The notes: a model not told the origin generated them from the sequence alone. Positions 13,440 through 47,996 are shown, counted from the first letter of the stretch. The stretch is DNA of 64,000 bases from Halomarina litorea (GCF_024227715.1 NZ_CP100448.1:496001-560000), one strand, 5' to 3'. Numbers and translations are program-made.

Positions 13440-13445
13440 CCGTGA

Positions 13446-13736: not shown

Positions 13737-13785
13737 GTCCCGTCTCCACCTCGGAGGAACAAGAGGGCCACGGCGGGGAGTGAGG

Positions 13786-15342: not shown

Positions 15343-15391
15343 GAGGGCTCCGACCGCTGTCTTCAAGTGGAGTTGCGCTAATCTCGGCCCA

Positions 15392-16030: not shown

Positions 16031-16031
16031 C

Positions 16032-17758: not shown

Positions 17759-18324
17759 TGTGCGGCGGGCGCGGGACGCGCCTCTCGCTCGGGACCGAGA
17801 AACCGCTCCTCTCTATCTGCGGGCGGGCGATGGTCGACCGGGTGCTCGACGCTCTCACCGACTCGGACGTCGAAAGGACCGTCGCCGCCGTCTCCCCGAA
17901 CGCCCCCCGGACCGCCGACCACGTCCGTGAGCGCGTCCCGACGGTGGAGACGCCCGGCGAGGGGTACGTCGCGGACCTGACCCACGCACTCGACGCGGGT
18001 GCCGTGACCCGCCCCGCCCTCACCGTCGTCGCGGACCTGCCCCTGCTGGACGGGCCGACCGTCGACGCCGTGCTGGCCGAGTACCGCGAGCGCGCGATGA
18101 CGGGGGAGTGCGCACTCGTCGTCTGCGTCCCCCTCGCGCTGAAGGAGCGACTGGGCGTGAGCGCGGACACCACGTTCGAGCGCGGGGGGCGGGCGCTCGC
18201 TCCGACGGGACTGAACGTCGTCGCCGACGCGGAGGACACCATCGTGACACGAGACACCTACCGACTGGCAGTGAACGTGAACCGACCGAGAGACACCCGC
18301 GTGGCGGAGGCGCTGTGCGACTAG
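17743..18324 (+). CDS. cobY: Adenosylcobinamide-phosphate guanylyltransferase (archaeal CobY)
   Basis: 193 residues. CobY is the archaeal, non-homologous replacement of bacterial CobU guanylyltransferase. The nucleotide-binding loop MCGGRGTRLSLGTEKPLL is intact and VVADLPLLDGPTVD supplies the acidic metal site; GLNVVADAEDTIV is typical of the C-terminal part. The GTG at 17743 is chosen because it keeps the first beta strand (VDALVMCGG) that an ATG at 17758 would lose. Confidence 0.88.
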   Translation: MDALVMCGGRGTRLSLGTEKPLLSICGRAMVDRVLDALTDSDVERTVAAVSPNAPRTADHVRERVPTVETPGEGYVADLTHALDAGAVTRPALTVVADLPLLDGPTVDAVLAEYRERAMTGECALVVCVPLALKERLGVSADTTFERGGRALAPTGLNVVADAEDTIVTRDTYRLAVNVNRPRDTRVAEALCD

Positions 18325-19313
18325 TCCTCGTCGCGGGGACGACCCGTACCGCGGGAATCGAGGGCATCAGCGCCGCGGGCGCACACCCGGACCTGTTGCG
18401 CCACACGCCGAGCGCGGACGCCGAGATACTGACGTACGGCCGGCCGGTGGCCCCGCCCGAGGGCGAGGCCCACCCGACGCCCGTCAGTCCGACGGGGTGC
18501 CCGACGCCCGCCGTCGTCACCCGTGCGGTCCGTGAGGTACTCGGGTTCGACGTCACCGTCCTCGACGCCGGCCTCGGGGCACCGTCGAGCGCACCGACCG
18601 TCGACCTCGGGGCGGTCCCCGGGAACGACGTCCGCGAGGGTCGGACCGTCCCTGACGCGAGGGGGGTGTTCGAGCGTGCCCGGCGACTCGGCGCGTCGCT
18701 CCCGGGGCCCCTCCTCGTTGGCGAGACGGTTCCCGGCGGGACGACGACGGCCCTCGGCGTGCTCCGCGCTCTCGGGTACGACCACTCGGTCTGTTCCTCG
18801 CTCCCCGACAACCCCCTCGACCTGAAGGAGCGAGTGGTCGCCGAGGGCCTCGCCGCCGCCGGCCTCGACGACGGGACCGGGGACCCGATTCGGGCGGTAA
18901 GGGCGGTCGGCGACCCGGTCCTCACCGCCGTCGCCGGACTCGTCGTCGGCGCGAGCGAGGCCGGCACCGAGGTGACCCTCGCCGGTGGGACCCAGCTGGT
19001 CGCGGCGGGCGCGCTGGTCCGCCACTGGAGCGACGCGCCCCTCGACGTCGCCACCACGTCGTTCGTCGCCGACGCCACGCCGGACCTCGCGACCGCCTGC
19101 GCCGACCTCGACCTCTCGCTGACCGTCACCGACCCGGGGTTCACCGACGACCACGTCGCGATGGCGCGCTACCTCGCGGGCGAGGGCAAGGAGGGCGTCG
19201 GGATGGGCGGGGTGCTCGCGCTGGCCGACCGCGAGGATTCGCTTCCCGCGGTCCGCGAGCGCATCGTGACGGTGTACGACCGTCTGCTCGGCGACGAGGG
19301 GGGTGAGCCCTGA
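18315..19313 (+). CDS. Nicotinate-nucleotide-dependent phosphoribosyltransferase, CobT type
   Basis: 332 residues. It belongs to the archaeal CobT-like family (UPF0284/TIGR00303) that activates the lower-ligand base to its alpha-riboside phosphate. Visible family segments are LVAGTTRTAGIEGISAAGA, VGETVPGGTTTALGVLRALG and LAGGTQLVAAGAL, plus the ending GEGKEGVGMGG. The GTG at 18315 overlaps the end of cobY. No dimethylbenzimidazole genes are in the window, so the base must come from elsewhere. Confidence 0.82.
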   Translation: MRLVLVAGTTRTAGIEGISAAGAHPDLLRHTPSADAEILTYGRPVAPPEGEAHPTPVSPTGCPTPAVVTRAVREVLGFDVTVLDAGLGAPSSAPTVDLGAVPGNDVREGRTVPDARGVFERARRLGASLPGPLLVGETVPGGTTTALGVLRALGYDHSVCSSLPDNPLDLKERVVAEGLAAAGLDDGTGDPIRAVRAVGDPVLTAVAGLVVGASEAGTEVTLAGGTQLVAAGALVRHWSDAPLDVATTSFVADATPDLATACADLDLSLTVTDPGFTDDHVAMARYLAGEGKEGVGMGGVLALADREDSLPAVRERIVTVYDRLLGDEGGEP

Positions 19314-20323
19314 TGGACCCGGACAGCGTCGGGTCGGTCGAGCGCGTGCCCCACGGGAGCGACGACGGCGTCGAACTGGACTTCAGCGCCAACTGCAACC
19401 CGATGGTCCCCGAGGGCGCCCGGGCGGTGTTCGCCGACTCGTTCGACGCCTCGCGGTCGTACCCCCGCGACGACTCCCCCGAGTTCCGTCGGGTGGCCGC
19501 CGACTACGTCGGTGGCTCGCCCGGGGACGTCGTCCCGACGGCGGGCGGCCTCGCCGCCATCCGCCTCGCCCTCGGCGTCACCGTCTCGCCGGGCGACTCG
19601 ATACTCGTCCCGGCACCCTCCTTCGGCGAGTACGCCCGCGAGGTCCGTCTGCAGGGCGGCGTCCCCGAGTTCGTCGCCCACGACGCCGTCCGGGACGCCG
19701 ACCCCGCCGACCACGCGATGGTCGTCGTCTGCACGCCGAACAACCCGACGGGGGAACTGCCCTCTCCCGAGGCCCTCGAGGGCCTCCACGAGCGCTGTCT
19801 GGGGGCGGGGACGCCCCTCCTCGCGGACGAGGCGTTCCTCGACTTCACCGACAGGCCCTCCCTCGCGGGCCGCGAGGGCGTCGTCGTCGCCCGCTCGCTC
19901 ACCAAGATGTTCGGCCTTCCCGGCCTGCGGGCGGGGTTCGCGGTGGCGACGGGGCGTCTGGGCGAGCGACTCCGACGGGCGGTCCCGGCGTGGGCGCTCG
20001 GGACCCCCGCCGCGCGGGTCGGGGCGTACTGCATGCGGCAGTCGGGGTTCGTCGAGGCGACCCGCGAGCGAGTCCGCGAGGAACGCCGGTATCTCCGGGC
20101 CGGACTGGAGGAGTACTTCGACGTGGCTCCCTCCGACGCCCCGTTCCTCCTCTGTGACGTGGGCGAGGACCCCTCGGACCTGCTCGCCGCCCTCCGGAAG
20201 CGGGGCATCGCGCTCCGCGACGCGACCACCTTCCGGGGGCTGGACACGCACGTCCGGGTCGCGGTCCGGACCCGGGACGACCACGACCGACTGCTGAGCG
20301 CGCTGGACGAGTGCACCAAATGA
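19313..20323 (+). CDS. cobD: L-threonine-O-3-phosphate decarboxylase (CobD), PLP-dependent
   Basis: 336 residues of the fold-type I aminotransferase superfamily. The PLP-binding lysine is in SLTKMFGLPGLRAGF near residue 195, with CTPNNPTGE and the Asp in LLADEAFLDF also present. CobD and histidinol-phosphate aminotransferase are close relatives; its place between the CobT-type gene and cbiZ, and the FSANCNP motif near the start, argue for CobD, which makes aminopropanol phosphate. It starts on the last base of the preceding stop codon and overlaps cbiZ by four bases. Confidence 0.85.
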   Translation: MDPDSVGSVERVPHGSDDGVELDFSANCNPMVPEGARAVFADSFDASRSYPRDDSPEFRRVAADYVGGSPGDVVPTAGGLAAIRLALGVTVSPGDSILVPAPSFGEYAREVRLQGGVPEFVAHDAVRDADPADHAMVVVCTPNNPTGELPSPEALEGLHERCLGAGTPLLADEAFLDFTDRPSLAGREGVVVARSLTKMFGLPGLRAGFAVATGRLGERLRRAVPAWALGTPAARVGAYCMRQSGFVEATRERVREERRYLRAGLEEYFDVAPSDAPFLLCDVGEDPSDLLAALRKRGIALRDATTFRGLDTHVRVAVRTRDDHDRLLSALDECTK

Positions 20324-21021
20324 CGAACGTGGAGACGGCGGTCCGCGACGGCGTTCTCCGGGTCCGGCGGCCCCACACGCGGTGGCTCTCCTCGGGGTGG
20401 CGCGGCGGCTTCTCGGAGGGTGAGACGGCGTACAACGTCGCCGTCCCGGAGGGGTGGACCGACACCGACCTCGACGGGTACATCAGAGCGCGCCGGGACC
20501 GGGCCGGGTTCGCAGAATCGGGGCCGACGCTCCTCACGGGCGTCGAGATGCGTCACGCCCGCGGCGCGCGCTGTGGCCCGGTGGCGGCGGTGGCCACGGC
20601 GGGCGTCTCGAACCCCGCGGAACTCCCGATGGACCCGGACGGGTCGGCGGACGGGGGCGACGAGTCGTCCCGACCGGGGACCGTCAACGTCCTCCTGTGG
20701 ACGGGACGGGCGCTCACGGACGGGGCGCTCGCGTCCCTCCTCGCCCTCGCCGCGGAGGCGAAGGCGGCGACGCTCCTCGCGCGGGTGGGGGTGCCGGGGA
20801 CGACCAGCGATGCCGCCGTCGTCGGGTGTGAGCGGACCGGCCCGCCCGAGGCGTTCGCCGGGAGCGCGACCGAAGTCGGGGCCTGCGCGCGGGCCTGCGT
20901 CCGCGAGGCGGTCGGCGCGAGTCTCGATGCGCGCTACCCGGAGGGCCAGTGGCCCGAGGGCGTCGAGGACGCAGAGTACGGTGTGGCGACGACGCGGCGG
21001 GCGTCGCTGTTCGAGGTGTAG
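20320..21021 (+). CDS. cbiZ: Adenosylcobinamide amidohydrolase (corrinoid salvage)
   Basis: 233 residues. CbiZ cleaves the aminopropanol arm of salvaged cobinamide to give cobyric acid, letting archaea reuse incomplete corrinoids. Recognisable segments are RWLSSGWRGGF near residue 24, YNVAVPEGW, GPTLLTGVEM, ATAGVSNPAE and NVLLWTGRALTDGAL. The start ATG at 20320 overlaps the cobD stop (ATGA). It is the last gene of the operon. Confidence 0.88.
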   Translation: MTNVETAVRDGVLRVRRPHTRWLSSGWRGGFSEGETAYNVAVPEGWTDTDLDGYIRARRDRAGFAESGPTLLTGVEMRHARGARCGPVAAVATAGVSNPAELPMDPDGSADGGDESSRPGTVNVLLWTGRALTDGALASLLALAAEAKAATLLARVGVPGTTSDAAVVGCERTGPPEAFAGSATEVGACARACVREAVGASLDARYPEGQWPEGVEDAEYGVATTRRASLFEV

Positions 21022-21084
21022 GTTCTCGCTGGAGCGGTCGCTGGTGGCGATAGTACCCGAAAAATCGGTGTTCGCGGTCGGACC

Positions 21085-22692
21085 TTAGAAGTCCATTTCG
21101 CCGAAGTCGTCGCCGCCGCTGTTGTTCAGGCGAGCGGCGACCACGTCGTCGATGCGCAGGAGGAGTTCGACGGCCTCCGTCGCGCTCTCGATGGCCTGTA
21201 GCTTCACGCGCAGGGGTTCGACCACGTGGAGGTCCTCCATGTCACCGACCTCGCCGGTGTAGGCGTCGAGGCCCGCGCTCGTCTCGCCCCGGTCGTGGCG
21301 GGCGCGGAGTTCGATCAGCGTGTCGATGGGGTCGAGGCCCGCGTTCTCCGCGAGGGTGCGGGGAACCACGTCGAGGGCGTCGGCGAACGCCTCGACGGCG
21401 AGTTGCTCGCGGCCGCTCACGCCGTCGGCGAAGTCGCGGATGGCGCGGGCGAGTTCGATTTCGGGCGCGCTCCCGCCGGGGACGACGGTGCCTTCCTGCA
21501 TCGTCACGCGAACGACGCCGAGGGCGTCGGTGAGTGCGCGTTCGACCTCGGTGACGACGTGGTCGGTGCCGCCGCGCAAGAGGATGGAGACGCTCTTGGG
21601 GTTCTCGCACTCCTCGACGAACAGCAGGGTGTCGTCGCCGATACGGCGTTCCTCGACGAGGCCCGCGTGTCCGAGGTGTGCGGACTCGATGTCCGAGAGG
21701 TCACCGACGGACTTCGCGCCGGTCGCCCGGGCGAGGGCGTGCATGTCGCTCTTCTTGACGCGCCGGAGCGCGAGGACGCCCTTCCGGGCGAGGAAGTGGC
21801 GCGCGAGGTCGTCGATGCCCTGCTGGCAGAAGACGACGTTCGCACCCGACTCGACGATGCTGTCGACCACGCCGCGCAGTTCGCCCTCCTCGCGGGCGAT
21901 GAACTCCTCCAACTGGGCGGGCGTCGTGATGGAGAGTTCGGCGTCGGCTTCCAGACCGCGGACCTCGATGGGGGTCTCCAGCAGGAGGACCGAGGCGTCC
22001 TCGACGCGGGTGGGCATGCTCTCGTGGGCGCGTTCCTTGTCGACGACGACGCCCTCGACGAGGCGCGAGTCGGCGACGCTCCCGCCGACTGCCGTCTCGA
22101 TGACGACGTCGTCGAGGTCGATGCCGTCCTCGTCGGCGACGGCCTGCACGGCGCTGACGACGAGGCCTGCCAGGAGGTCCTTGCTGGCCTCGGCTCCCTT
22201 GCCGGTCATCGCGGTCATGGCGATCTTCCGGAGGGTGTCCTCGTCGTCCGCGTCGACCTGCATCGCGAGGGCTTCGAGGACGCTACGCGCCTCGGCGGCC
22301 GCGAAGCGGTAGCCGTTGGCGATGACCGTCGGGTGGATGTCGTCGTCCAGCAGGTCCTCGGCCTTCGCGAGGAGTTCGCCGGCGATGATGACCGCCGTCG
22401 TCGTGCCGTCGCCCGTCTCCTCCTCCTGCGTGGAGGCGACCTCGACGATCATCTGGGCGGCGGGGTGTTCGATGTCCATCTCCTCCAAGATGGTCACGCC
22501 GTCGTTCGTGATGACGACGGTGCCGGAGGGGTCGACGAGCATCTTGTCCATCCCCTTGGGGCCGAGCGTCGTTCGGACGGCCTCCGAGACGGCCTTGCCC
22601 GCCCGGATGAACATCCACTGGGCGTCGCGCCCGCGGGTCCGGCGGCTTCCCTCGCTCAGGATGTACACTGGCTGACCGTAGGTGTAGGACAT
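21085..22692 (-). CDS. Thermosome subunit (group II chaperonin)
   Basis: 535 residues. Group II chaperonin subunits form the double-ring ATP-driven folding machine of archaea. ATP-site motifs are [12 protein letters not shown] and GDGTTTAVI; the helical-protrusion apical domain lies in the middle. The C-terminus ends [13 protein letters not shown] without the long Gly-Met repeat tail seen in many thermosome subunits, which points to a CCT3-like haloarchaeal paralogue. It interrupts the cobalamin genes on the opposite strand. Confidence 0.92.
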
Positions 22693-22852
22693 AATCGAGC
22701 GGCCGTAGGGTGGGAGAGGAGATAAACATAGCTCGACTGATAGTAGTTCGCTCGGCCACCGCGCAGTACCGCGATTCTACCGGTGTCGAATCGACCGGAT
22801 GGCGCGTGCGAGGAAGGCGGGGTGTGGCGCGAGTCACGCTGTTCCTCGCTCG

Positions 22853-23659
22853 CTATCGCTCGTCGACCAGTTCGTACCCGATGTTGTGCTCGCGGAGCCT
22901 GTCGGTGTGCGTCGAGAGCTCACGCGTCGTCACCAGCAGGAGGACCGACAGGCCCCGCGCGGCGGCCTCCTGAACCGCCACGACGGTTCCGAAGCGCACG
23001 TTCGGTTCGACGCCGGCGGCCCGTGCCGCCGCGAGGGCCTCCGTCCCGGCGGCGGCCACGACATCGTGGTCCGCGGCGAGGCCGGCCACCCGGTCGGAGT
23101 CAAGCGCCCGACTCCCGCCGCTGCGCACGTCGGGGAAGACGAGGACCGTCGCGTGGCCCGTCTCGTAATCGAGGAGGCCGGTGAAGTCCGTCACGCCCAC
23201 GTCCTGTCCCTCCTCGGCGTCCGTGATGGCGATGGCCGTCGCACCCCCCGATTCGCCCGGACCGGCGTGGAGGGTGCCGTCGCGCATGGTGAGCGTCACG
23301 CGGTCGCCCTCGCGGACGGAACCGGTGGCGATGGCCGTCTCCACCTCCACCTGCCCGATGACCTCCTGTGCGACGAACTCGGTGTAGCCCTGCAGGTCCT
23401 CCGTACAGGAGATGAGCCAGTCGACGCCCTCCTTGGTCACCTCGTAGCGCCCTCGCCCGTGTTTCTCGACGTGGCCCGCCTCGACCAGTTCGCCGATGTA
23501 GTCGCTGACGGCCTGCGCGGTGACGCCCACGGCGTCCGCTATCTCCTGCTGGCTCACGGCCGGTTGACGGGCGGCGATGGCGACGAGAATCTGGTAGCGC
23601 GAGGCGTCGCGCTTGCTCCGCAGGACGGAGACGTCGCGTTCGCCGAGGCCGTCGGTCAT
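22853..23659 (-). CDS. Winged-helix transcription regulator with C-terminal sensor domain
   Basis: 268 residues. Residues 20-80 form a winged helix: QPAVSQQEIADAVGVTAQAV is the helix-turn-helix and YEVTKEGVDWL the wing. The remainder contains an RNA- or ligand-binding-like strand set (EGDRVTLTMRDGTLHA) and a Rossmann-like end (LAADHDVVAAAGTEALAAAR). I recall haloarchaeal proteins of this layout under DUF7839, ligand unknown. It is divergent from cbiA with a 126-bp gap, so it could regulate cbiA, but this is only proximity. Confidence 0.75.
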   Translation of the reverse strand: MTDGLGERDVSVLRSKRDASRYQILVAIAARQPAVSQQEIADAVGVTAQAVSDYIGELVEAGHVEKHGRGRYEVTKEGVDWLISCTEDLQGYTEFVAQEVIGQVEVETAIATGSVREGDRVTLTMRDGTLHAGPGESGGATAIAITDAEEGQDVGVTDFTGLLDYETGHATVLVFPDVRSGGSRALDSDRVAGLAADHDVVAAAGTEALAAARAAGVEPNVRFGTVVAVQEAAARGLSVLLLVTTRELSTHTDRLREHNIGYELVDER

Positions 23660-23785
23660 ACCCTACCGTCCGGCGCGTGCCGCAAGTAGCTTTCCGACCC
23701 GTCCCACCCCGGTTGTCGACAGCCACAAGCGGGGTTGTGTTCGACCCGGGGGAGGGATGAAGCCCCCTCGCCCCGTTCGGCGGGC

Positions 23786-25090
23786 ATGGACGGCATCGTA
23801 CTCGCGGGGACCGCCTCCGGCGTCGGCAAGACCGTCGCCACCCTCGCGGTCTGTCGGGCGTTCGAGCGGGCGGGCCGTACCGTCGCGACGGCGAAGGCCG
23901 GCCCGGACTTCATCGATCCGAGCCACCACGCCGCCGTCACCGGCCGGCCGAGTCGGACGCTCGACCCGTGGCTCTCGGGCGACGACGGGATGCTCGGGAA
24001 CTACTGGCGGGGGGCGGGCGACGTCTGCCTCGTCGAGGGGATGATGGGGCTGTACGACGGGGACGTCTCGACGGCCCGCGTCGCCGCCACCCTCGACCTG
24101 CCCGTCGTCCTCGTCGTGGACGCGAACACGGGCATGGAGAGCGTCGCGGCGACGGCACTCGGGTTCCGGGAGTACGCCGCCCGGACGCCGTCCGAGGTGG
24201 ACGTCGTCGGCGTCGTCGCGAACCGCGCCCACGGCGGCCGTCACGAGGCGGGCATCCGGGAGGCGCTCCCCGACGGACTCCAGTACTTCGGCCGAATCCC
24301 TCCGCGAGAGGACCTCTCGATACCGGAGCGCCACCTCGGCCTGCACTGGGGCGGGGAGTCCCCGGTTCCGGCCGACGCACTCGACGCGGCCGCCGAACAC
24401 GTCGACGTCGCCGGACTCCGTGAGGTGGCCCGCCCCCCGCCGCGTCCCGGCCCCGACGTCGCCCCGCCCCCATCGTCGGGACCGACCAGAAAGCGGGTCG
24501 CCGTCGCTCGCGACGACGCCTTCCGGTTCGTCTACCCCGCGACTCTGGAGCGACTCCGCGAGCGTGCGACGGTCGTCCCGTTCGCGCCGGCGGACGGGGA
24601 CGACCTCCCCGACTGCGACGGGGTCTACCTCCCCGGCGGCTACCCCGAGAACCACGCGGCGGCGCTCTCGGGGGGTCCGGCACTCGACACGCTGGCCGAC
24701 CGGGCGGCCGACGGCCTGCCCGTCCTCGGGGAGTGCGGGGGGCTGATGGCTCTCGCCGAGTCGCTCGCCGTCGCGGGCGAGACCCACGAGATGGCCGGTG
24801 TCCTCCCCGCGGACGTCGAGATGACCGACCGGCCGCAGGCGCTCGACCACGTCGAACTCCGGGCCCGGTCGGGGGCGCTCACGACCCGTTCCGGGGGGAC
24901 GGTCCGCGGTCACGAGTTCCACTACTCGCGGGCCGCGGTAGCCGGCGACGCTCGGTTCGCGTTCGACGTGGTCCGGGGTCACGGCGTCGACGGCGAACAC
25001 GACGGTCTCACGGAACACCGGACGCTCGGCACGTACGCGCACGTCCACGCCGACAGCGGCGCGTTCGACCGGTTCGTCGACTCGCTCTGA
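23786..25090 (+). CDS. cbiA: Cobyrinate a,c-diamide synthase
   Basis: 434 residues. CbiA amidates the a and c side chains of cobyrinate with glutamine and ATP. The P-loop is GTASGVGKT, followed by KAGPDFIDPSHH and VEGMMGLYDG; the glutaminase Cys is in LGECGGLMAL and the C-terminal RGHEFHYSR carries the conserved His region. It is homologous to cbiP but acts one step earlier. It is separated from the main cobalamin operon by the thermosome and HTH genes and has its own promoter region. Confidence 0.92.
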   Translation: MDGIVLAGTASGVGKTVATLAVCRAFERAGRTVATAKAGPDFIDPSHHAAVTGRPSRTLDPWLSGDDGMLGNYWRGAGDVCLVEGMMGLYDGDVSTARVAATLDLPVVLVVDANTGMESVAATALGFREYAARTPSEVDVVGVVANRAHGGRHEAGIREALPDGLQYFGRIPPREDLSIPERHLGLHWGGESPVPADALDAAAEHVDVAGLREVARPPPRPGPDVAPPPSSGPTRKRVAVARDDAFRFVYPATLERLRERATVVPFAPADGDDLPDCDGVYLPGGYPENHAAALSGGPALDTLADRAADGLPVLGECGGLMALAESLAVAGETHEMAGVLPADVEMTDRPQALDHVELRARSGALTTRSGGTVRGHEFHYSRAAVAGDARFAFDVVRGHGVDGEHDGLTEHRTLGTYAHVHADSGAFDRFVDSL

Positions 25091-38171: not shown

Positions 38172-40562
38172 ATGTCGAGACCGTTTCGCGCGCTCGTCCC
38201 CGACGCCATTCGGGAGAGCTACGCGCGCAAGTTCGCCGTCATCCTCGCCGTCCTCGGCGTGTCGGTGCTGCTCGCCGGCATCGTCACGACCGGTCAGATG
38301 CAACAGGAACTGAACGACCGGGCCGACCAGCAGTACGCGAGCTTCGCCTCGCAGGAGGCCCAGGCCCTCCAGAGCTGGCACAGCACCAACCGCAATCAGG
38401 TGCGCCGGGCCGCCGAGTCGAACGAACTCAACGCGCCGGACGACGAGGCCAGACAGGACGGCGTCGAGGCGTGGATTCACCGCATGGCGAACGAGACACA
38501 GGCCGTGCGGTACGTGAGCTACGAGTCGGGAACCGTCGTCGCGAGTACGGCCGCCGACCGCGGGGCCGACCTCGAGTCGGTCGACGCCCCGTGGGGGAGC
38601 GAGACGTCGCTTCGCGGCCTCGACGAGGACGAGACGGCACCCGCCGTCCAGCACGACGACATCTTCGTGACGGACGTCTACACCGAGACGGTCGACGGCG
38701 AGTCCGTCCCGGTGGTCTCGTACGCGGTCCCCGTCCCCAGTTTCCGCGGGGCGTACGTCGTCGCCACCTACCGACTCGACCAGTACCTCGGCGCGAACGT
38801 CGTCGGCAAGTACGACGCGAGCGACGTGGCCCTCGTCGACAGCGCCGGACGGGGCGTCTCGACCGCCGGTGCCGGCGTGCAGGACTACTCCGGCGAGACC
38901 CTGACGGCGGCGCGCGACGCCGAGTCCGCCGGGTCGATTCGGGAGGGGAGCGCCCCCGGCCCCTTCGGCGGTCTGCTGTTCGGCGGGTCCGGTGACCTCG
39001 TCGGCCACGCCAGCACGGACGACGGCGCGTTCACCGTCCTCCTGGAGACGCCGATGGCCGTCGCCTACCCCACCGACATCGTCAGCTGGGGGCTGCTCGG
39101 CACGTTCGTGGGCGTCGGTCTCATCGGCGCGTTCGGGACGGCCATCGGGATGAACACCGCCCGTTCCATCGACCGCCTGCGCGGCAAGGCAGAGCGGATG
39201 GAGGCCGGTGACTTCGACGTGGAACTGGAGACCGAGCGCGTGGACAACATCGGCCGCCTCTACGGGGCGTTCGGGTCGATGCGCGACGCGCTCCGCGGAC
39301 AGATCGAACAGACGGAACACGCGCGTGCGGAGACGGAGTCGCTCAACGTCGCCCTCGAACGGCAGGCCGACGAGTACAGCGACGTGATGCAGGCGTGTGC
39401 GGACGGCGACTTCACCCGCCGGATGGACGTCGACGGGGAGAGCGAGGCGATGACCGCCGTCGCCGAGGAGTTCAACGAGATGATGGACGAGATAGAGGCG
39501 ACCGTCGACCGCCTCAAGGCCTTCTCCGACCGGGTGGCGCACTCCACCCAGCAGGTGGCGACCTCCGCGGAGATGATCCGCGAGGAGTCCGCGGAGACGA
39601 CCAACTCCCTCACGGACATCTCGGCGGACGCGAACGCGCAGAACGAGACGCTCCAGACGGCCTCGGACGACATGGTCGGCCACCTGACGACCATCGAGGC
39701 GATGGCCGACTCCTCGAACGAGGTGGCGACTATCTCCCGCGAGACAGCCGAGACGGGCCGCGAGGGGCGACAGGCCGCCGAGCGCGCCATCGAGAGCATG
39801 CGCGAGATCGAGGCGCACTCCGGCGAGACGGTCGCGGAGATGGAGCGCCTCGAAGCGGAGGTCGAACAGGTCGACGAACTCATCGAGTTCATCTCCGACG
39901 TGGCGGAGCAGACGAACATGCTGGCGCTGAACGCCAACATCGAGGCGTCACGCGCCGGCGAGTCCGGCGAGGGGTTCGCGGTGGTCGCGAACGAGATCAA
40001 GTCCCTCGCCAGCGAGACGAAGACGGCCGCGGGCGACATCGAGGAGCGCCTCGAACGCATCCAGGAGCAGACCGAGCGGACGGTCGCGGAGGTCCGCGAG
40101 AACAGCGACCGGGTCTCCGCGAACACCGGGTCCGTCGAGGACGCGGTGGACGCACTGGACGAGATTGCGGGCTACGCACAGGAGACCAACGACGGCGTGC
40201 AGGCCATCTCCGAGTCGACGGAGGAGCAGGCGGCCTCGACGGAACACCTCGTGCGGACGGTCGACGAAGCGGCCGCCATCAGCCAGGAGACGGCCGTCGA
40301 GTCCGAGTTCGTGGCGACGGCCGCCGAGACGCAGACCGAGGCGCTGGAGGAGATGTCCGAGAGCGCCGGCGACCTCGCCGAGAAGGCGACGCGCCTGAGC
40401 GACGCCCTCGACCGCTTCGAGACGGCAGAGAGCGCGTCCGACGAGGGGGACGCCGAACTGGAGGACGCCGACGAGTCGGTCGCCGGGGCCGTCGAGGAGG
40501 CCGACCCCCGCCCCGAGGAGGAACTGGTGCCCGCCGACCGTCCGGGCGGAGGGGACGAGTGA
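38172..40562 (+). CDS. Haloarchaeal transducer (methyl-accepting chemotaxis protein)
   Basis: 796 residues. One membrane helix near 17-40, an extracytosolic double-Cache-like sensor to about 290 (VRYVSYESGTVVASTA, VYTETVDGESVPVVSYAVP), a second helix near 300-320, a HAMP domain and a long signalling coil. The hairpin tip VAEQTNMLALNANIEASRAG is intact. The C-terminus is acidic and disordered. It heads the che operon and overlaps cheW by four bases, so it is the dedicated receptor of this system. The ligand is unknown. Confidence 0.92.
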   Translation: MSRPFRALVPDAIRESYARKFAVILAVLGVSVLLAGIVTTGQMQQELNDRADQQYASFASQEAQALQSWHSTNRNQVRRAAESNELNAPDDEARQDGVEAWIHRMANETQAVRYVSYESGTVVASTAADRGADLESVDAPWGSETSLRGLDEDETAPAVQHDDIFVTDVYTETVDGESVPVVSYAVPVPSFRGAYVVATYRLDQYLGANVVGKYDASDVALVDSAGRGVSTAGAGVQDYSGETLTAARDAESAGSIREGSAPGPFGGLLFGGSGDLVGHASTDDGAFTVLLETPMAVAYPTDIVSWGLLGTFVGVGLIGAFGTAIGMNTARSIDRLRGKAERMEAGDFDVELETERVDNIGRLYGAFGSMRDALRGQIEQTEHARAETESLNVALERQADEYSDVMQACADGDFTRRMDVDGESEAMTAVAEEFNEMMDEIEATVDRLKAFSDRVAHSTQQVATSAEMIREESAETTNSLTDISADANAQNETLQTASDDMVGHLTTIEAMADSSNEVATISRETAETGREGRQAAERAIESMREIEAHSGETVAEMERLEAEVEQVDELIEFISDVAEQTNMLALNANIEASRAGESGEGFAVVANEIKSLASETKTAAGDIEERLERIQEQTERTVAEVRENSDRVSANTGSVEDAVDALDEIAGYAQETNDGVQAISESTEEQAASTEHLVRTVDEAAAISQETAVESEFVATAAETQTEALEEMSESAGDLAEKATRLSDALDRFETAESASDEGDAELEDADESVAGAVEEADPRPEEELVPADRPGGGDE

Positions 40563-41050
40563 CCGAGAGCGCGGTCGGGGGGACGCCCGACGTCGACCCC
40601 GTCGAGGTGCTGGAGGTGGTGGCGTGTCGGGTCGGCGAGTCGTGGTACGGCCTCGAGGTGGGCCGGGTCCGACAGGTCGACGACTGCCCGCCGACCACCC
40701 GCGTCCCGCGGACCGCACCCGCGGTCCGGGGCGTCGCGAGCGTCGCCGGCGAGGTGACGGTCGTCGTCGACGCCCGCGTCGCCCTCGACTCCTCGCCCGA
40801 CGACGGCAGCGACCGACTCGTGGTCCTCGACCGGGGCGACCAGCCCCAGCCGGTCGCCCTCCTGGTCGACGCCGTCGCCGACATCGAGCGCTGTCCCGTC
40901 GAGACGCTCGGTCGTCCCGGTCCCGACGACACGGGGTGGGCGAAGGCGGTGGCCGACCGCGAGTCCGGCCCGCTGACGGTGCTGTCCGTCGAGCGCATCG
41001 CCGAGACGGTATCGACTGCGAACACCCGCGGACACGGAGACTTCAAATGA
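40559..41050 (+). CDS. cheW: CheW coupling protein
   Basis: 163 residues. CheW links receptors to CheA. The fold is seen in VVACRVGESWYGLEVGRVRQ, VRGVASVAGEVTVVVDARVA and RLVVLDRGDQPQPVALLVDA. The GTG at 40559 overlaps the transducer stop. The N-terminal 15 residues are disordered. It overlaps cheY by four bases. Confidence 0.9.
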   Translation: MTESAVGGTPDVDPVEVLEVVACRVGESWYGLEVGRVRQVDDCPPTTRVPRTAPAVRGVASVAGEVTVVVDARVALDSSPDDGSDRLVVLDRGDQPQPVALLVDAVADIERCPVETLGRPGPDDTGWAKAVADRESGPLTVLSVERIAETVSTANTRGHGDFK

Positions 41051-41427
41051 CAGACAGCGATCCCATCGGCATCCTCATCGTCGACGACTCCGACTACATG
41101 CGGAGTCGTCTGAAGAGCGTCCTCGACGAGGACACGTACGTCGTCGTCGACGAGGCACCCAACGGCGCGTGGGCGGTCCAGAAGTACAAGGAACACCGCG
41201 AGGACGTCGACGTCGTCCTCATGGACATCGTGATGCGGAAGGCCAACGGCGTGAAGGCCACCGCCGCCATCAAGCACATCGACCCGGACGCGCGCGTGCT
41301 CATGTGTACGAGCGTCGGCCAGCGCAAGAAGATGAAACTGGCCGCCCGCGCGGGTGCCGACGGCTACGTCACGAAACCGTTCGACGACGAGGACATCGTC
41401 ACGGCCATCGACGGCATCCTCGCATGA
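41047..41427 (+). CDS. cheY: CheY response regulator
   Basis: 126-residue receiver domain. Acid pocket ILIVDDSDYM (Asp13-Asp14), phospho-acceptor Asp60 in VVLMDIVM, Thr/Ser in LMCTSVGQ and Lys in YVTKPFDD are all intact. It should carry the signal to the archaellum through CheF-type adaptors, which are not in the window. A 17-codon open frame overlaps its end before cheA. Confidence 0.93.
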   Translation: MTDSDPIGILIVDDSDYMRSRLKSVLDEDTYVVVDEAPNGAWAVQKYKEHREDVDVVLMDIVMRKANGVKATAAIKHIDPDARVLMCTSVGQRKKMKLAARAGADGYVTKPFDDEDIVTAIDGILA

Positions 41428-41467
41428 CGACCGGCACCCGGACCGACGAGGACGACCCACTCCGACG

Positions 41468-44400
41468 ATGTCGGTGAGCGACGAGTTCGTCCGCGAGAGT
41501 ACCGCGCACCTGCGCGACGTGAGCGACGCGCTGCTCGCCATCGAGCGCGAGGTCGACCCGGAGACGCTGAACGCGGCCTTCCGGGCCGCCCACAGCCTGA
41601 AGGGCAACTGCGCGATGGCGGGGCTGACCGGCGCGAGCACGCTCGCACACGCTGTCGAGGACCTCCTCGCGGCGGTCAGGGTGGGCGAGGTCACGCCCGA
41701 GGCCGACCTCGTGGACGCGGCGCTGGACGCCACCGATGCCATCGAGGCGGTCGTCAGGGCCGCCGGAAACGGCGGTTCGGCCGACGTGGACGCCGAGGCG
41801 GTCGCGGAGGCGCTCCGCGCGTCGCTCGCGACCCGGGCGGTCGACCCGGGTGACGGCGCGTCGTCCGCCGACCCGACTCCCGAGACCCCGCCGTCGGACC
41901 CCGACGACGGCCTCGACGACCCGTCGCTCGACGACGAGGTGCGCTCGGCGCTCGACAGCGTCGCGGAGTACGACGACCTCGACGAGTTGATGGGGACGAT
42001 GGACGACCCGGATACCCTGCCGGACCTCCCGGAGGCGGCGACGCTGGCCAACGACGCATCCGCCCCCGAGGACGGCGAGGACCTCTTCTCGGCGGTGAAG
42101 TCGGAGGTCGAGTCCGAGTCGGCCCCGGCTGACCTCGCGGACCTCCAGCGTGACATCGACGCGGTGTCGTTCGGGGAGTTCGACGAGGACGACGAACTGG
42201 GAATCGCCGACCTCATCGAGGGGTCCGGCCTCGGCGAGGACGACCCGACCGGGACCGCAGCGGACGACGCGGCGGACGACACTCCCGCGTCGGACGAGAC
42301 GGCGAGCGGCGAACTAGAGGGCGAACTGGACGGCGGACCGGACGACCAGTCCGACGCCTTCGACCCGTTCGGGGCGGGGTCCGCGGCGGACCCCGAGCGC
42401 CAGTCGGGCTTCGACGGCTCCGGCCCGTTCGCGCCCCCCGAGGATTCGACGGCGTCCCGCCCGGACCCCGCCGACGCCGACCCGGACGGCTCCGTCGGCT
42501 CCGACGGTTCCGAGGACCCGTTCGCGGCCGTCAAGGCCGAGGTCGAGTCCGAGTCGGTCCCGGCTGACCTCGCGGACCTCCAGCGTGACATCGACGCGGT
42601 GTCGTTCGGGGAGTTCGACGAGGACGACGAACTGGGCATCGCCGACCTCATCGAGGGCTCTGCGGCGGGGACGCCGCCCGGGCCGGACGAGACGGGGACG
42701 GACCCCGCCGGGACGAGCGGGGAGTCCCCGTCGCCGGACCCGCCGGCGGACCCCCTCGATTCGCTCGAACCTGCGGTGGTCCGCGTCCCGCCCGCCCCGT
42801 CGCCACCTGCCCACCCGGACGACCTGACGCCGGCCGTCGTCCGGGCCGTCGACCCGCCCGCCGTCCCCGACGGCGAGGCGTTGCCGGCCATCGTGCCCGC
42901 GACGGCACCCGACCCGCCGGCGGACGCCGTCGCGGGATCGGGTCGTCCCGCCATCGTCCCCGCCCCGGAGGGTGCGACGGACGAGGCCCCCGCCCCGCCC
43001 GCCCCGTCCGACCACCCAGTAGGACTCACCTCGGCGGTTCGCGCGGTCGCGCCCGACCCGCCGGTGGACCCGCCAGCGGACCTGCGTCCCGCCGTCGTGC
43101 CGGCCGTGGACCCGCCGGCGGACCCGGACGACCTCGTCCCGGCGGTCGTCCGCACCGGGAGCGACGACCCGTCGCCGGCGTCCGCGGCGGCAGACCCGAA
43201 CGCCGAGGCCGCCGACGAGGTGGACCCGGAGGTGGCGGCGCTCCTCGACGACTCCTTCGAGGGACTCGACTCCGAGCAGTCCGACCCCGCCCCGGCGGAG
43301 ACCGAGGCGGACGCCGACGCGGTCGGCGCGGACGACGGCATCGACCCGGACGTCGAGGACCTGCTGGACGCGCCGTTCGCCGAGGCGGACGACGAACCGG
43401 TGGGCTTCGAGCGCAACGCGGAGACGGCAGCGTTCGAGGACCGATTCGGCGGGCTCTTCGGCGAGGGTCCGTCGACGCCGACGCGGACGGTCACGACCAT
43501 CGACGACAGTAGCGTCGGGGACACGTTCGCGCCCGACGCGCCGCCGACCCCGGAGCGGTCCGGCGACGCGGTGCAGTCCATCTCCGTCGACGTGGCCGAC
43601 GCCGACGCGTTGCTCTCGCAGGTCGAGGCGCTGACGACGGCGCGCTACCGCCTCGAGTCGTCCCTCGGCGGGACCGTCTCCGAGGAGGCGCTGGAGGCGC
43701 TGACGGCCCTCGGGAGCGTCACGGCCGACCTCCGCGGGACCGTCATGGACGTGCGCCTGATGCCGTTCGAGCGGGCGACGCGGAACCTCCCGCGCCTGGT
43801 GCGCGACATCGCCCGCGCACAGGACAAGCGCGTGACCCTCGACGTGACCGGCCGCGAGGTGGGGCTGGACCGCTCGGTCATCGACCGCATCGGCGACCCG
43901 CTGGTCCACCTCGTGCGCAACGCCGTCGACCACGGCATCGAGGCCCCCGAGGCCCGCGAGGCGGCCGGCAAGCCCACCGAGGGACGCGTCGAGGTACGCG
44001 CCGAACGGATCCGCGACGGCGTCGTCATCGAGGTCAGGGACGACGGCCGCGGCATCGACGCCGAGGCGGTCCGCGAGCAGGCGGTCGAATCCGGCCTGCT
44101 GGACGCCGAGGCGGCCGCCGACCTCCCCGACGAGGAGTGCTTCCCGCTCGTCCTCGAACCGGGGTTCTCGACGGCCGAGGAGGTGACCGACGTGAGCGGC
44201 CGCGGCGTCGGGATGGACGTCGTCGACCGCGTGGCGAGCGACCTCGGCGGGAGCGTCACCGTCGAGAGCACGCCCGGCGCGGGGACGACGGTCCGCCTCC
44301 AGTTGCCCGTCACCGTCGCCGTCGCCGAGGTACTGTTCGTCGGCGTCGGCGACGAGCGCTACGGCATCCCCCTCACGGCCGTCGAGGAGGTCGAGGCGGC

Positions 44401-44740
44401 GGGCGCGAACGCCGTCGAGACGGTCGACGGCGAGGCGACGCTGGCGGTCACGCGGACGGACGAGGACGGCGACCCGGCCGACGGGAGCGTCGAGCGCTAC
44501 CCCCTGGTCCGACTGGCGACCGCACTGGAGACGCCCGGTCCCGCGAGCGAGGGCGGCACCGTCGTCAGACTGCGCCCCGAGACGCGGCGGGTCGCCCTGC
44601 AGTGCGACGAGGTACTGGAGACGCGGGAGGTCGTCGTCCGCCCCTACGAGGGGCTACTCGGCGACGTGACGGGCGTGAGCGGCGCGACGCTCCTCGGCGG
44701 CGGGGAGCTGGTGAACATCATCGACGTAGCAACGATATGA
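41468..44740 (+). CDS. cheA: CheA sensor kinase with very long linker
   Basis: 1,090 residues, far above the usual 630-700. The HPt domain spans 1-110 with phospho-His42 in RAAHSLKGNCAMAG. Residues 110-700 are an acidic, then Pro-rich linker holding a 50-residue duplication (204-253 and 349-398) and short repeats such as VDPEVAALLDDSF and IDPDVEDLLDAPF. No clear P2 domain is seen. Dimerisation, HATPase (HLVRNAVDHGIE, VRDDGRGID, GRGVGMDVV) and CheW-like domains fill 700-1,090. It overlaps cheC by four bases. Confidence 0.92.
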   Translation: MSVSDEFVRESTAHLRDVSDALLAIEREVDPETLNAAFRAAHSLKGNCAMAGLTGASTLAHAVEDLLAAVRVGEVTPEADLVDAALDATDAIEAVVRAAGNGGSADVDAEAVAEALRASLATRAVDPGDGASSADPTPETPPSDPDDGLDDPSLDDEVRSALDSVAEYDDLDELMGTMDDPDTLPDLPEAATLANDASAPEDGEDLFSAVKSEVESESAPADLADLQRDIDAVSFGEFDEDDELGIADLIEGSGLGEDDPTGTAADDAADDTPASDETASGELEGELDGGPDDQSDAFDPFGAGSAADPERQSGFDGSGPFAPPEDSTASRPDPADADPDGSVGSDGSEDPFAAVKAEVESESVPADLADLQRDIDAVSFGEFDEDDELGIADLIEGSAAGTPPGPDETGTDPAGTSGESPSPDPPADPLDSLEPAVVRVPPAPSPPAHPDDLTPAVVRAVDPPAVPDGEALPAIVPATAPDPPADAVAGSGRPAIVPAPEGATDEAPAPPAPSDHPVGLTSAVRAVAPDPPVDPPADLRPAVVPAVDPPADPDDLVPAVVRTGSDDPSPASAAADPNAEAADEVDPEVAALLDDSFEGLDSEQSDPAPAETEADADAVGADDGIDPDVEDLLDAPFAEADDEPVGFERNAETAAFEDRFGGLFGEGPSTPTRTVTTIDDSSVGDTFAPDAPPTPERSGDAVQSISVDVADADALLSQVEALTTARYRLESSLGGTVSEEALEALTALGSVTADLRGTVMDVRLMPFERATRNLPRLVRDIARAQDKRVTLDVTGREVGLDRSVIDRIGDPLVHLVRNAVDHGIEAPEAREAAGKPTEGRVEVRAERIRDGVVIEVRDDGRGIDAEAVREQAVESGLLDAEAAADLPDEECFPLVLEPGFSTAEEVTDVSGRGVGMDVVDRVASDLGGSVTVESTPGAGTTVRLQLPVTVAVAEVLFVGVGDERYGIPLTAVEEVEAAGANAVETVDGEATLAVTRTDEDGDPADGSVERYPLVRLATALETPGPASEGGTVVRLRPETRRVALQCDEVLETREVVVRPYEGLLGDVTGVSGATLLGGGELVNIIDVATI
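42077..42225 (+). repeat. First copy of a 149-bp repeat in the cheA linker
   Basis: Encodes ADLADLQRDIDAVSFGEFDE and DDELGIADLIEGS. The second copy at 42512-42660 is nearly identical over its last 118 bp at the DNA level, including silent sites, which points to recent duplication or gene conversion. Confidence 0.85.
42512..42660 (+). repeat. Second copy of the 149-bp repeat in the cheA linker
   Basis: Offset 435 bp from the first copy, keeping frame. Most differences are in the first 30 bases (FSAVKSEV versus FAAVKAEV). Confidence 0.85.
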
Positions 44741-45411
44741 GCAATACGAGTAAACCGAACGACACCAAGACGAGCGGGCGAGCGGACTCCCCGACCCCGG
44801 CGGAGCGGACCATCGCGGTCGAGTCCCTCGCCGTCATGAACCGACTCGGAGAGATCGGCATCGGCGGCGTCGAGCGTCGTCTCCAGCAACTCCATCCCGA
44901 GGCGACGGTCACGTCGGAGCAGGTCGCCCACGGCTACGCCCGTGCGGACCTGCTGGAGGCGACCTTCGTCGGCGAGGAACGCGTCGGCGTCAGGAGCCGA
45001 CTGCCGGGCGCACCCTTCGGGAGCGCCCTCGTCCTGTTCCCCCTCGCGAGTGCGAACAACGCGGCGCGACTCATGGTACGGGACGTGCTCTCGGAGGGCG
45101 AAGCGCCCAGCCACAAGATGGCCCAGAGCGCCATCACGGAGCTCGGCGGGATGATCGCCAGCGGCTTCCTCGACGCCTGGGCCGACACGTTCGAACAGGA
45201 GATCGACGTGGGCGCGCCCACGCCCATCCAGGACACGGAGGCCGAAATCGTCGGGACGCTCATCGAGGAGGACGAGGACCTCGGTATATACGTCGCCTCG
45301 CGGCTCACCCTCCCGGCGTACGACATCACCGTGCAGGTGTACCTCTTCCCGCGGACGGACATCCTCATCGAGATACTGCGGCGCATCGACGTCGAACGGG
45401 TGGTGCCGTGA
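44737..45411 (+). CDS. cheC: CheC-like protein with altered phosphatase motif
   Basis: 224 residues, one CheC-type module after a disordered 25-residue start. The CheY-P phosphatase motif [DS]-x3-E-x2-N reads SAITELGG here, so the Asn is replaced by Gly and activity is doubtful. The helix motif NRLGEIGIGGVERRLQQL at the start and FPRTDILIEILRRIDV at the end are typical. It overlaps both cheA and the double-CheC gene by four bases. Confidence 0.85.
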   Translation: MSNTSKPNDTKTSGRADSPTPAERTIAVESLAVMNRLGEIGIGGVERRLQQLHPEATVTSEQVAHGYARADLLEATFVGEERVGVRSRLPGAPFGSALVLFPLASANNAARLMVRDVLSEGEAPSHKMAQSAITELGGMIASGFLDAWADTFEQEIDVGAPTPIQDTEAEIVGTLIEEDEDLGIYVASRLTLPAYDITVQVYLFPRTDILIEILRRIDVERVVP

Positions 45412-46697
45412 GGCTCGACGTCGACGCCCTCGGGACGTTCTACGAGATGGCTCGCGAGGGCGCACAGCTGGCGGCCGACCGCCTGACGCCGATGACGGAC
45501 ATCCAGGCGCGGGTGGGCGTCACCCGCCTCGACTTCACGACGGGGGAGGCCATCCGCGCCGAACTCGACGACGACGTCGAGAAGGTGGGCATCCGCGTGG
45601 AGCTGACGGGGGGGATGGACGGCACCGCCCTCCTCCTGTTCGACGAGGCGAGCGCCGAGGCAGTGGCTGGTACCCTCACCGACGGCCTCGACGGGAGCGA
45701 CGAGGCCCTCACGCGCTCGGCCATCGCGGAGGTGAGCCAGATCATGAACAGCGGCTTCGTCGACGGCTGGGCGGACGTCCTCCGGACCGAGATAGACGTC
45801 TCGACGCCGGACCTCGTCGCGGGCACCGAACCCGAGGCGTTCGTCGACCCCGACGACGTGGCGACGGGCGACGACCTCGCGGTCGTGTTCCGCTCGCAGA
45901 TCGAAGCCGTCGGGACGGAGTTCGCCTTCAGACACTACTTCGTCCCCACCGCCGAGTCCATCGAGGCGCTGTTCCAGCGTCGGACCGCGGGCTACGCCCT
46001 GGAGTACGAGAAGCTGGTCGGCTTCGACCGGATGGCCCACCGCGGGGCCGAGACGGTCGCCGAGAACCTGACGAAGATGACGGGCATCGAGATGGACGTC
46101 GACATCCGGCGCATCAACTTCGTCTCGCTGGACGCCATCCCGGAGGACGTTCCCGCCGAACCGCAGGTGAGCGTCGCGTTCAGCTTCGACGGCCTCCCCT
46201 CGGGCTACCTCCTCTTCCTGTTCGGCGAGCGTTCGGCCCGGTCGCTCGTCTCGGCGACCGTCGGCGAGAGCGAACTCGACGAGTCCGGCATCGGCGCGTT
46301 CGGACAGGACGCCGTCCAGGAGCTGTCGAACGTGATGGCCTCGGGCCTGCTCGACGGCTGGGCGAACCTGCTCGATACGACCATCGACCACACCACCCCG
46401 ACGTACGCCCACGACATGGGCGCGGCCGTCGTCGACCCGCTCATCGTCGGCCTGAGCGAGGGCCAGGAGTTCGCGTTCGTCTTCGACACGCGCATCGAGG
46501 CCGTCGACGCCGACATCGAGTTCGACCTCGACATCTTCGCCATCCCGGACGAGGGCGACCTGGAGCGGGCGCTGGAACGCCTCGAGGTCGGACGCGTCGA
46601 CGACACCCCCACGCGCGCCGAGTTCACCGCTGCCGCGGACGGCCCGGACAGCGAGGACCTGCGCGAACTCGCGGAGATGGAGGGGGTGGACCTGTGA
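45408..46697 (+). CDS. Double CheC protein
   Basis: 429 residues, two CheC modules in tandem (about 1-200 and 205-400). The phosphatase motif is SAIAEVSQ in the first half (Asn to Gln) and DAVQELSN in the second, where the canonical [DS]-x3-E-x2-N is intact. So only the C-terminal module looks catalytically competent; the other may be regulatory, for example for CheD binding. The start is a GTG overlapping the preceding stop; the gene overlaps cheD by four bases. Confidence 0.85.
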   Translation: MRLDVDALGTFYEMAREGAQLAADRLTPMTDIQARVGVTRLDFTTGEAIRAELDDDVEKVGIRVELTGGMDGTALLLFDEASAEAVAGTLTDGLDGSDEALTRSAIAEVSQIMNSGFVDGWADVLRTEIDVSTPDLVAGTEPEAFVDPDDVATGDDLAVVFRSQIEAVGTEFAFRHYFVPTAESIEALFQRRTAGYALEYEKLVGFDRMAHRGAETVAENLTKMTGIEMDVDIRRINFVSLDAIPEDVPAEPQVSVAFSFDGLPSGYLLFLFGERSARSLVSATVGESELDESGIGAFGQDAVQELSNVMASGLLDGWANLLDTTIDHTTPTYAHDMGAAVVDPLIVGLSEGQEFAFVFDTRIEAVDADIEFDLDIFAIPDEGDLERALERLEVGRVDDTPTRAEFTAAADGPDSEDLRELAEMEGVDL

Positions 46698-47206
46698 AGA
46701 CCTTCGAGTCCGCGGCCGCGGACGCGCCGACGGCTCCAGACCGGCTTCTCGTCGGCGTCTCCGACTACGTGGTCGCGGAGGACGGCGAGACGCTCGTCGC
46801 CTATGGGCTGGGCGCGTGCGTGGCCGTCGCCCTCTACGACCCCGAGGCGGGCGTCGGCGCGCTGGCGCACACGATGCTCCCCCACCAGCCTGCCGAGGGC
46901 GGGTCGCCGGGGAAGTACGCCGACGAGGCGGTGCGGACGATGCTGCGCGAACTGGTCGCTCGCGGCGGCGACTACGAGGCGGCGGAGGCGTGGCTGGTCG
47001 GCGGGGCCGAGATATTCGCCCTGCCGGACATCGCCGATGGGGCGGGCGAGCGCAACGTCGCGGCCGCCCGCGAGCAGTTGGCCGCCCTCGACGTCGCGCT
47101 CGCCGGGATGGCGGTCGGTGGCTCGCGTGGGCGGACCGTCGAGTTCGACACCGCGACCGGCGAGGTGCGGGTCTCGACGGCCGACGGGCACGAGGAGGTC
47201 CTCTGA
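46694..47206 (+). CDS. cheD: CheD receptor deamidase
   Basis: 170 residues. CheD deamidates receptor glutamines and partners with CheC. The catalytic Cys42 in YGLGACVAVAL and His59 in GALAHTMLPH are in place, and FDTATGEVRVSTADG closes the fold. A GTG start overlaps the double-CheC stop. With no CheB or CheR nearby, CheD-CheC may be the main adaptation branch of this operon. Confidence 0.9.
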   Translation: MKTFESAAADAPTAPDRLLVGVSDYVVAEDGETLVAYGLGACVAVALYDPEAGVGALAHTMLPHQPAEGGSPGKYADEAVRTMLRELVARGGDYEAAEAWLVGGAEIFALPDIADGAGERNVAAAREQLAALDVALAGMAVGGSRGRTVEFDTATGEVRVSTADGHEEVL

Positions 47207-47207
47207 G

Positions 47208-47996
47208 ATGGGTGCCGACGCGACCGGGGAGGGGCGAGAGGAGGACCGACCGGCCCCGCTCGACTCGTCGGACGCGTCCGGGTCGGCCCCGCTCGGCCTC
47301 GTCTACGCCGTCGCGGGGGCGAAAGGCGGCGTCGGCAAGACGACGACGGCGGCCAACCTCGCCGCGATGTTCGGCTCCGGCGAGCGCTCCGTCGTCGTCG
47401 TCGACACCGACCTCGCGACGGCCTCGCTGACCGACCAACTCGACCTCTCGCCCCCGCGCGGTGACACCCTCCACGCGGTGCTGGCGGGCGACGTCGGCGT
47501 CGAGTCGGTGGTCACGAGCCTCGACGGGTTCGACGTGGTGCCGGGCGACGGCTCGGTTGCGGCGTTCGCCGGGGCGGACGTCGAGCGCCTGCGCCCGGCC
47601 GTCGAGACCCTGCGCGAGCGCTACGACGTGGTCGTCCTCGACGTGGGCGCGGGCCTCTCGCACGACACGGCGGTCCCGCTGGGACTCGCCGACCGCGTCC
47701 TCGTCGTGACGACGCCGGCGAACGCCGCCGTCGCCGCCGCCGAGAAGACGCGCGTCCTCGCCGAGCGTCTGGACTGTCGCGTCGAGGGCTGCGTCGTCAC
47801 CTCGGTCCGGGAGCGCGCCGACATCGAACCGGTCCGGTCGGGACTCGACGCGCCCGTCCTCGCAGCCATCCCGCACGACCCCGCCGTCGACCGGAGCCAC
47901 CGCGAGGGCGTTCCGGTGACGCTCACCGCGACGGGGAGCGCCGCCGCGACGGCCTACTGGAACCTCTCGCGTCGCGGGCGCCCCGGCGGCGACTGA
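47208..47996 (+). CDS. MinD/ParA-family ATPase of the che operon
   Basis: 262 residues. After an acidic 30-residue start comes AVAGAKGGVGKTTTAANLAA (deviant Walker A), VVVVDTDLATASL and VVVLDVGAGLS. It is a different paralogue from the one at 30,425. Placed directly after cheD (1-bp gap), it probably positions the chemosensory array, as MinD paralogues do in Haloferax. The C-terminus is basic (LSRRGRPGGD), with no obvious amphipathic helix. Confidence 0.88.
   Translation: MGADATGEGREEDRPAPLDSSDASGSAPLGLVYAVAGAKGGVGKTTTAANLAAMFGSGERSVVVVDTDLATASLTDQLDLSPPRGDTLHAVLAGDVGVESVVTSLDGFDVVPGDGSVAAFAGADVERLRPAVETLRERYDVVVLDVGAGLSHDTAVPLGLADRVLVVTTPANAAVAAAEKTRVLAERLDCRVEGCVVTSVRERADIEPVRSGLDAPVLAAIPHDPAVDRSHREGVPVTLTATGSAAATAYWNLSRRGRPGGD

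Follow-up and report, generated by a model that had tools for sequence, protein, structure and literature searches.

A chemosensory operon without CheB, CheR, or CheF in Halomarina litorea represents a class of haloarchaeal clusters that may adapt through CheC and CheD

The 64,000-nucleotide stretch of the Halomarina litorea genome analyzed here (the window) contains, at positions 38,172 to 47,996, a chemosensory (che) operon of eight genes. As expected of a Che system in general, it encodes a receptor, CheW, a CheA with its phospho-acceptor histidine, and a CheY with its phospho-acceptor aspartate, and these are accompanied by two CheC proteins, CheD, and a MinD-like ATPase. The methylation enzymes CheB and CheR are absent, as is CheF. 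We consider it probable that this operon specifies a self-contained array belonging to a distinct haloarchaeal class, one that would work free of methylation, adapt through CheC, CheD, and phosphorylated CheY (CheY~P), and act on a target other than the archaellum. The parts, absences, and conserved residues behind this reading come directly from the sequence data. The genes are as follows.

38172-40562, plus strand: htr, receptor (MCP) with a dCACHE-like ectodomain, HAMP domain, and signaling hairpin (Pfam MCPsignal 1.4e-35, HAMP 1.5e-11)
40559-41050, plus strand: cheW, GTG start (Pfam CheW 2.1e-20)
41047-41427, plus strand: cheY (Pfam Response_reg 5.5e-27)
41468-44740, plus strand: cheA, with Hpt, HATPase_c, and CheW domains (Pfam)
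44737-45411, plus strand: cheC1, single CheC domain (Pfam CheC 1.2e-6)
45408-46697, plus strand: cheC2, double CheC (CheC/CheX; Pfam CheC 1.5e-14, two stretches)
46694-47206, plus strand: cheD (Pfam CheD 3.4e-22)
47208-47996, plus strand: minD, archaeal MinD-like ATPase of the MinD/ParA type (Pfam; TIGR01969 minD_arch 3.6e-40, under the model cut-off)

All eight genes are intact and each is recognized by Pfam, in the order htr-cheW-cheY-cheA-cheC-cheCC-cheD-minD, in agreement with the coupled operon of a preliminary description of this DNA. That description had four-base overlaps at nearly all junctions; in the sequence, 4-bp (RTGA) overlaps join five of the seven (htr/cheW, cheW/cheY, cheA/cheC, cheC/cheCC, and cheCC/cheD), and the remaining two are gaps of 40 nt (cheY-cheA) and 1 nt (cheD-minD). 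It had also noted that cheB, cheR, and cheF are missing from the operon, and profile searches extend this to the whole genome (3.88 Mb in 6 contigs, 98.4% complete, not closed), where CheB, CheR, and CheF (PF04283) find no match with models that matched their positive controls, including Haloferax volcanii. The Pfam models for archaellin (PF01917) and ArlD/E (PF04659) are likewise without a match anywhere in the genome, which consequently has neither the CheR and CheB nor the CheF and archaellum of canonical haloarchaeal chemotaxis. There are exactly two CheW domains, CheW itself and that of CheA, and a single MCP, the product of htr. All of these belong to the operon, so neither a second che system nor CheV is present in the genome. 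The proposal that the enzymes might be shared with a second che cluster is accordingly ruled out as far as a genome search can do so, with no CheB, CheR, or second CheA found, and cheB and cheR do not occur elsewhere as a detached part of the only che system.

The same inventory recurs within the genus. CheW is found in four of eight Halomarina genomes, in exactly two copies in each, and the operon is shared by H. oriensis and H. rubra. CheB, CheF, archaellin, and ArlD/E have no match in any of the four che-bearing genomes (the window genome G000, G003, G005, and G006), nor does CheR in the three that were searched for it (G000, G003, and G005). The archaellin and ArlD/E models do work in Halomarina, since both match in G004, a genome without CheW, MCP, or CheF that would therefore have an archaellum without a che system. 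G006 has several extra MCPs with the canonical tip IEAAR (L153-L156), despite having no CheB or CheF and a single CheA.

To place the operon among haloarchaeal systems, we drew on 293 sampled genomes of the order, of which 231 have CheW and 217 have CheR. The gene order described here is thus not that of most haloarchaea, the majority of which have CheR. A scan for double-CheC proteins gave 32 named loci, which we sorted by their gene maps. Clusters lacking cheB and cheR are conserved in 16 distinct loci and occur in Halomarina, Halocatena, Haloferax profundi, H. marinum, Salinigranum salinum, Halorussus, Halorubellus (as a second cluster), an uncultured metagenome-assembled genome, and G174; in Natrialbaceae and canonical clusters, either cheB and cheR are present or the layout is archaellum-linked. 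CheB is missing from the whole genome in four Halomarina, three Halocatena-like genomes, and G174, and CheR in three of those Halomarina, two Halocatena, and G174, with models that find both enzymes in most relatives. The two Halocatena genomes (G232 and G287) each have one MCP, no CheR, CheB, CheF, or archaellin, and a single weak ArlD/E match resembling the orphan second match that controls show away from their archaellum genes. The Haloferax, Halorussus, Salinigranum, and Halorubellus genomes have one cheB elsewhere, the cluster without cheB and cheR being a second system, and enzyme sharing is therefore possible in these genera; it is not possible for Halomarina, Halocatena, and G174. In G072, from a different haloarchaeal family, a locus with cheA and cheB beside archaellins (L035) has only a stretch of about 90 amino acids matching cheR, at 7757-8026; several genomes of its genus are without CheR by Pfam.

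A phylogenetic tree of CheA separates the two types of cluster. Those bearing cheB and cheR form one group of 20 rows (99/96), and 17 rows without these genes fall on the other side, two of them (L069 and L032) on long branches that make their placement less sure. The Pfam P3 dimerization model has no match to the window CheA; the tree was based on its kinase region, which can be aligned with that of other CheAs. Canonical proteins pass the NCBIfam CheY_Halo and CheA_Halo cut-offs and the class fails them, the window CheY scoring 148.8 against a cut-off of 200 and the window CheA 533 against 950.

The class also differs at individual residues. We compared residue counts by Fisher tests, whose p-values are only indicative because the sequences are related and their independence is overstated. 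In the window CheY, the phospho-acceptor pocket is intact (D60, T88, and K110), and the N terminus of helix 4 reads R93-K94, where CheF-coupled CheYs have E-E. The two residues after SVGQ are EE in canonical clusters (8) and RE in the Natrialbaceae type (12), whereas the class has RK, RQ, RA, KK, or QE, and EE in none of 15. A negative patch at this site is the proposed archaeal interface with CheF (PMC6718144). The Hpt domain of the window CheA carries AAHSLKG and is followed by a long acidic linker in which the motif LQxDIDAVxFGEFDEDD is repeated. A conserved LQxDIDAVxFGEFDxxD motif occurs, once or twice per linker, only in Halomarina and Halorussus-type members (the window, L011, L039, L042, L043, L045, and L046), possibly as a docking peptide. 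The phosphatase asparagine is replaced in cheC1 (ELGG), and in cheC2 domain 1 is degenerate (EVSQ) and domain 2 keeps an intact phosphatase motif (D...ELSN); the ExxN motif of domain 2 is kept in 16 of 16 class members.

The CheD deamidase uses a catalytic triad of threonine, cysteine, and histidine, which are Thr21, Cys27, and His44 in Thermotoga. Aligned to the Thermotoga protein (PDB 2F9Z), the window CheD keeps Cys42 and His59 and has Ala36 in place of the threonine, so that the triad is incomplete. This position is alanine in all 16 class members and serine or threonine in 19 of 20 others. The cysteine is kept in 13 of the 16 and is serine in the three Halocatena-type members, and the histidine is lost in L069 and L046. 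The receptor tip (IEASRAG in the window) reads ASR in 14 of 15 class members, as opposed to AAR or AAH in 16 of 16 others (ASR in none of 16). Counting methylation positions from this tip, after a strict regular expression was discarded as too noisy, the E-E pair of MH1 is kept in 7 of 15 class receptors versus 16 of 16 others and is E-A in the window.

Together, the parts outline how such an array might work. A ligand at the ectodomain would change CheA activity via CheW, CheA would phosphorylate CheY, and CheC2, through its intact second CheC domain, would remove the phosphate. Adaptation without methylation could then come from CheC loaded with CheY~P together with CheD, as a binding-based feedback on the receptor or CheA. 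CheD would act mainly as a binding regulator, given that its catalytic threonine, and in Halocatena also its cysteine, is lost. All parts of such a loop, an active CheC phosphatase motif, CheD, and CheY, occur in one system, and CheD is present in every cluster of the class. By analogy with Bacillus subtilis, in which CheY~P binding by CheC matters more than catalysis and CheD regulates CheA (PMC3579733), we infer that CheY~P-dependent binding between CheC and CheD may alter CheA activity. The B. subtilis loop shares the CheC phosphatase, CheD, and CheY but runs beside CheB/CheR methylation and CheV, which Halomarina is without, as it is without the catalytic threonine of CheD. The earlier suggestion that adaptation rests on CheD and CheC is supported as the most plausible route, with CheB, CheR, and CheF absent. 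CheY~P would act on a target other than CheF and the archaellum; bacterial precedents make surface (type IV) pili or attachment a tentative first guess.

Several observations weigh against this picture. Some class receptors still carry E/Q pairs, and most class CheDs keep the cysteine and histidine, so some enzymatic activity is possible. G006 has the extra canonical-tip MCPs and G174 has archaellins and ArlD/E but no CheF, so that archaellar output is possible in some members.

The most substantial of the competing explanations concerns CheD, which could still be an enzyme that deamidates receptor glutamines once, as maturation, in a system that otherwise does not adapt. The retained Cys42 and His59, the cysteine in 13 of 16 members, and a Q-Q pair in Halomarina receptors (ATSTQQVAAS in H. 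oriensis and H. rubra) would suit this role, but the alanine in every member, the serine in Halocatena, the lost histidines of L069 and L046, and the broken E-A pair of the window receptor all make it unlikely, as does the retention of CheD in all clusters, including those where its catalysis should be lost. Another explanation, that the array steers unrecognized archaella or swimming by another route, draws on G174, which has the same cluster type, archaellins, and ArlD/E without CheF. We think this improbable, as the archaellin and ArlD/E models that match in the che-less G004 are silent in all four che-bearing Halomarina, and the CheYs of the class are without the proposed CheF patch.

It is comparably improbable that the operon is a decaying remnant, in which the archaellum was lost, then CheB, CheR, and CheF, with the rest on its way out. 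Of six other Halomarina genomes with a completeness of at least 97%, three lack CheW altogether, and the che-bearing ones have no archaellum, as decay would predict. Against it, all eight genes are intact with the catalytic residues of CheA, CheY, and CheC2 kept, and the operon is under purifying selection, as judged from ratios of nonsynonymous to synonymous substitution rates (dN/dS) below 1 for all genes; among the three closest species (H. oriensis, H. rubra, and G006), these are 0.03-0.08 for cheY and 0.11-0.13 for cheC2. In Haloferax, Halorussus, Salinigranum, and Halorubellus, moreover, the class is retained in genomes that do have a cheB, and archaellum loss is therefore not its cause. 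That CheB and CheR are present but were missed, through an assembly gap in a genome that is not closed or through sequence divergence, is very improbable, because both are repeatedly absent in Halomarina, Halocatena, and G174 by models that find them in most relatives. We therefore retain the self-contained, methylation-free array as the preferred interpretation.

What the array senses appears to vary among members. An AlphaFold2 model of the window receptor's ectodomain (mean predicted local distance difference test score, pLDDT, of 61) has MCP/dCACHE (tandem-Cache) sensors as its best fold matches in the Protein Data Bank, and this low-to-moderate-confidence model indicates that the receptor probably binds a small extracellular ligand. 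The receptors of H. oriensis and H. rubra (L038 and L039) have a Met/His-rich ectodomain insert at alignment columns 230-275, for example ENMGGMHGDMAMGEMDMS, which may bind metal and has no counterpart in the window receptor. In Halocatena, Haloferax marinum, Halorussus, and Salinigranum, a gene for an H-NOX (haem NO/O2-binding) protein lies directly upstream of htr, at these positions.

L034, 5484-6816: H-NOX gene upstream of the class receptor
L033, 6330-6881: H-NOX gene upstream of the class receptor
L060, 4599-5222: H-NOX gene upstream of the class receptor
L041, 2437-2988: H-NOX gene upstream of the class receptor
L043, 11565-12107: H-NOX gene upstream of the class receptor
L044, 2929-3480: H-NOX gene upstream of the class receptor
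L045, 11678-12877: H-NOX gene upstream of the class receptor

Four of these loci (L041, L043, L044, and L045) also have a truncated globin gene nearby. Of the 293 genomes, 64 have H-NOX genes, an htr lies within a short stretch around H-NOX in 26 of 30 loci examined, and the repeated pairing with the class points to gas sensing; no H-NOX match was found in the three Halomarina genomes searched, that of H. litorea included. A rhodopsin-family gene adjoins htr in two further clusters (L032 12766-13485 and L069 3731-4444, from G174 and Halorubellus salinus), which suggests a light-sensing version. The class looks like a portable module built on one receptor, with an exchangeable input. It is conceivable, at somewhat less than even confidence, that its members are dedicated non-motility systems with one receptor per array that sense gases (H-NOX), light (rhodopsin), or extracellular ligands (dCACHE), control a behavior other than an archaellar one, and have memory only via CheC, CheD, and CheY~P.

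MinD has a deviant Walker A motif (KGGVGKT). MinD proteins influence the placement of chemosensory arrays in Haloferax volcanii (PMC11588486), and the window protein shares with MinD4 and MinD2 of that species its membership in the MinD-family ATPases but is operon-encoded, short, and dispensable. The gene is present in three of four Halomarina operons; H. oriensis lacks it, as does this cluster in all other genera observed. It is an optional member, whereas a MinD4-type array-positioning ATPase would be expected to accompany its chemosensory system consistently, and we rejected it as a core part. A minD near two Haloferax clusters (L040 and L041) was rejected as a counterpart, being on the opposite strand and only 34-35% identical. 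Where present, MinD might serve as an optional positioning factor. Of the preliminary interpretation as a whole, the missing enzymes and CheC-CheD adaptation hold, sharing with a second cluster falls, and, with minD attached to only these three operons, built-in array positioning is left weak.

Canonical archaellum-coupled systems, such as those of Halobacterium salinarum and Haloferax volcanii, have homologous CheA, CheW, CheY, CheC, double CheC, CheD, and Htr proteins; the Halomarina operon differs in having no CheB, CheR, CheF, or archaellum, one receptor, and a CheA on the opposite side of the tree. The Natrialbaceae-type cluster (L048-L059, L067, and L068) has a similar CheC1-CheC2-CheD block, with double CheCs 47-57% identical, but contains cheB and cheR. 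Bacterial non-flagellar classes (type IV pili, Tfp, and alternative cellular functions, ACF) likewise have arrays without flagellar output, whereas the Halomarina operon has no Tfp or ACF output gene and a haloarchaeal, CheC/CheD-based composition. The operon is best described as a variant of known chemosensory systems; we found no description of the class itself in the open literature, subscription papers lying outside that search. A survey reported a strict association between CheF and archaeal che genes, with Methanosarcina barkeri as the one che-bearing exception (PMC2666748); unlike what that survey found, Halomarina has a maintained che system that is accompanied by neither CheF nor methylation enzymes nor an archaellum. 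What CheC and CheD do in archaeal cells has been described as unresolved (PMC2666748, PMC3579733), and a natural system whose only recognized adaptation proteins are these two makes the question directly testable.

The neighbors of the operon are not related to motility and encode a CBS-domain protein, BAT/HTH_10 regulators, EF-1alpha, and Mn catalase. In each of the four che-bearing Halomarina, the gene for the translation factor EF-1alpha lies directly 3' of the operon. A sigma-70-type promoter scan was set aside as not informative for archaea. Elsewhere in the window, a run of cobalamin (cob/cbi) biosynthesis genes at 12744-25090 is interrupted by a thermosome gene (Cpn60_TCP1) at 21085-22692.

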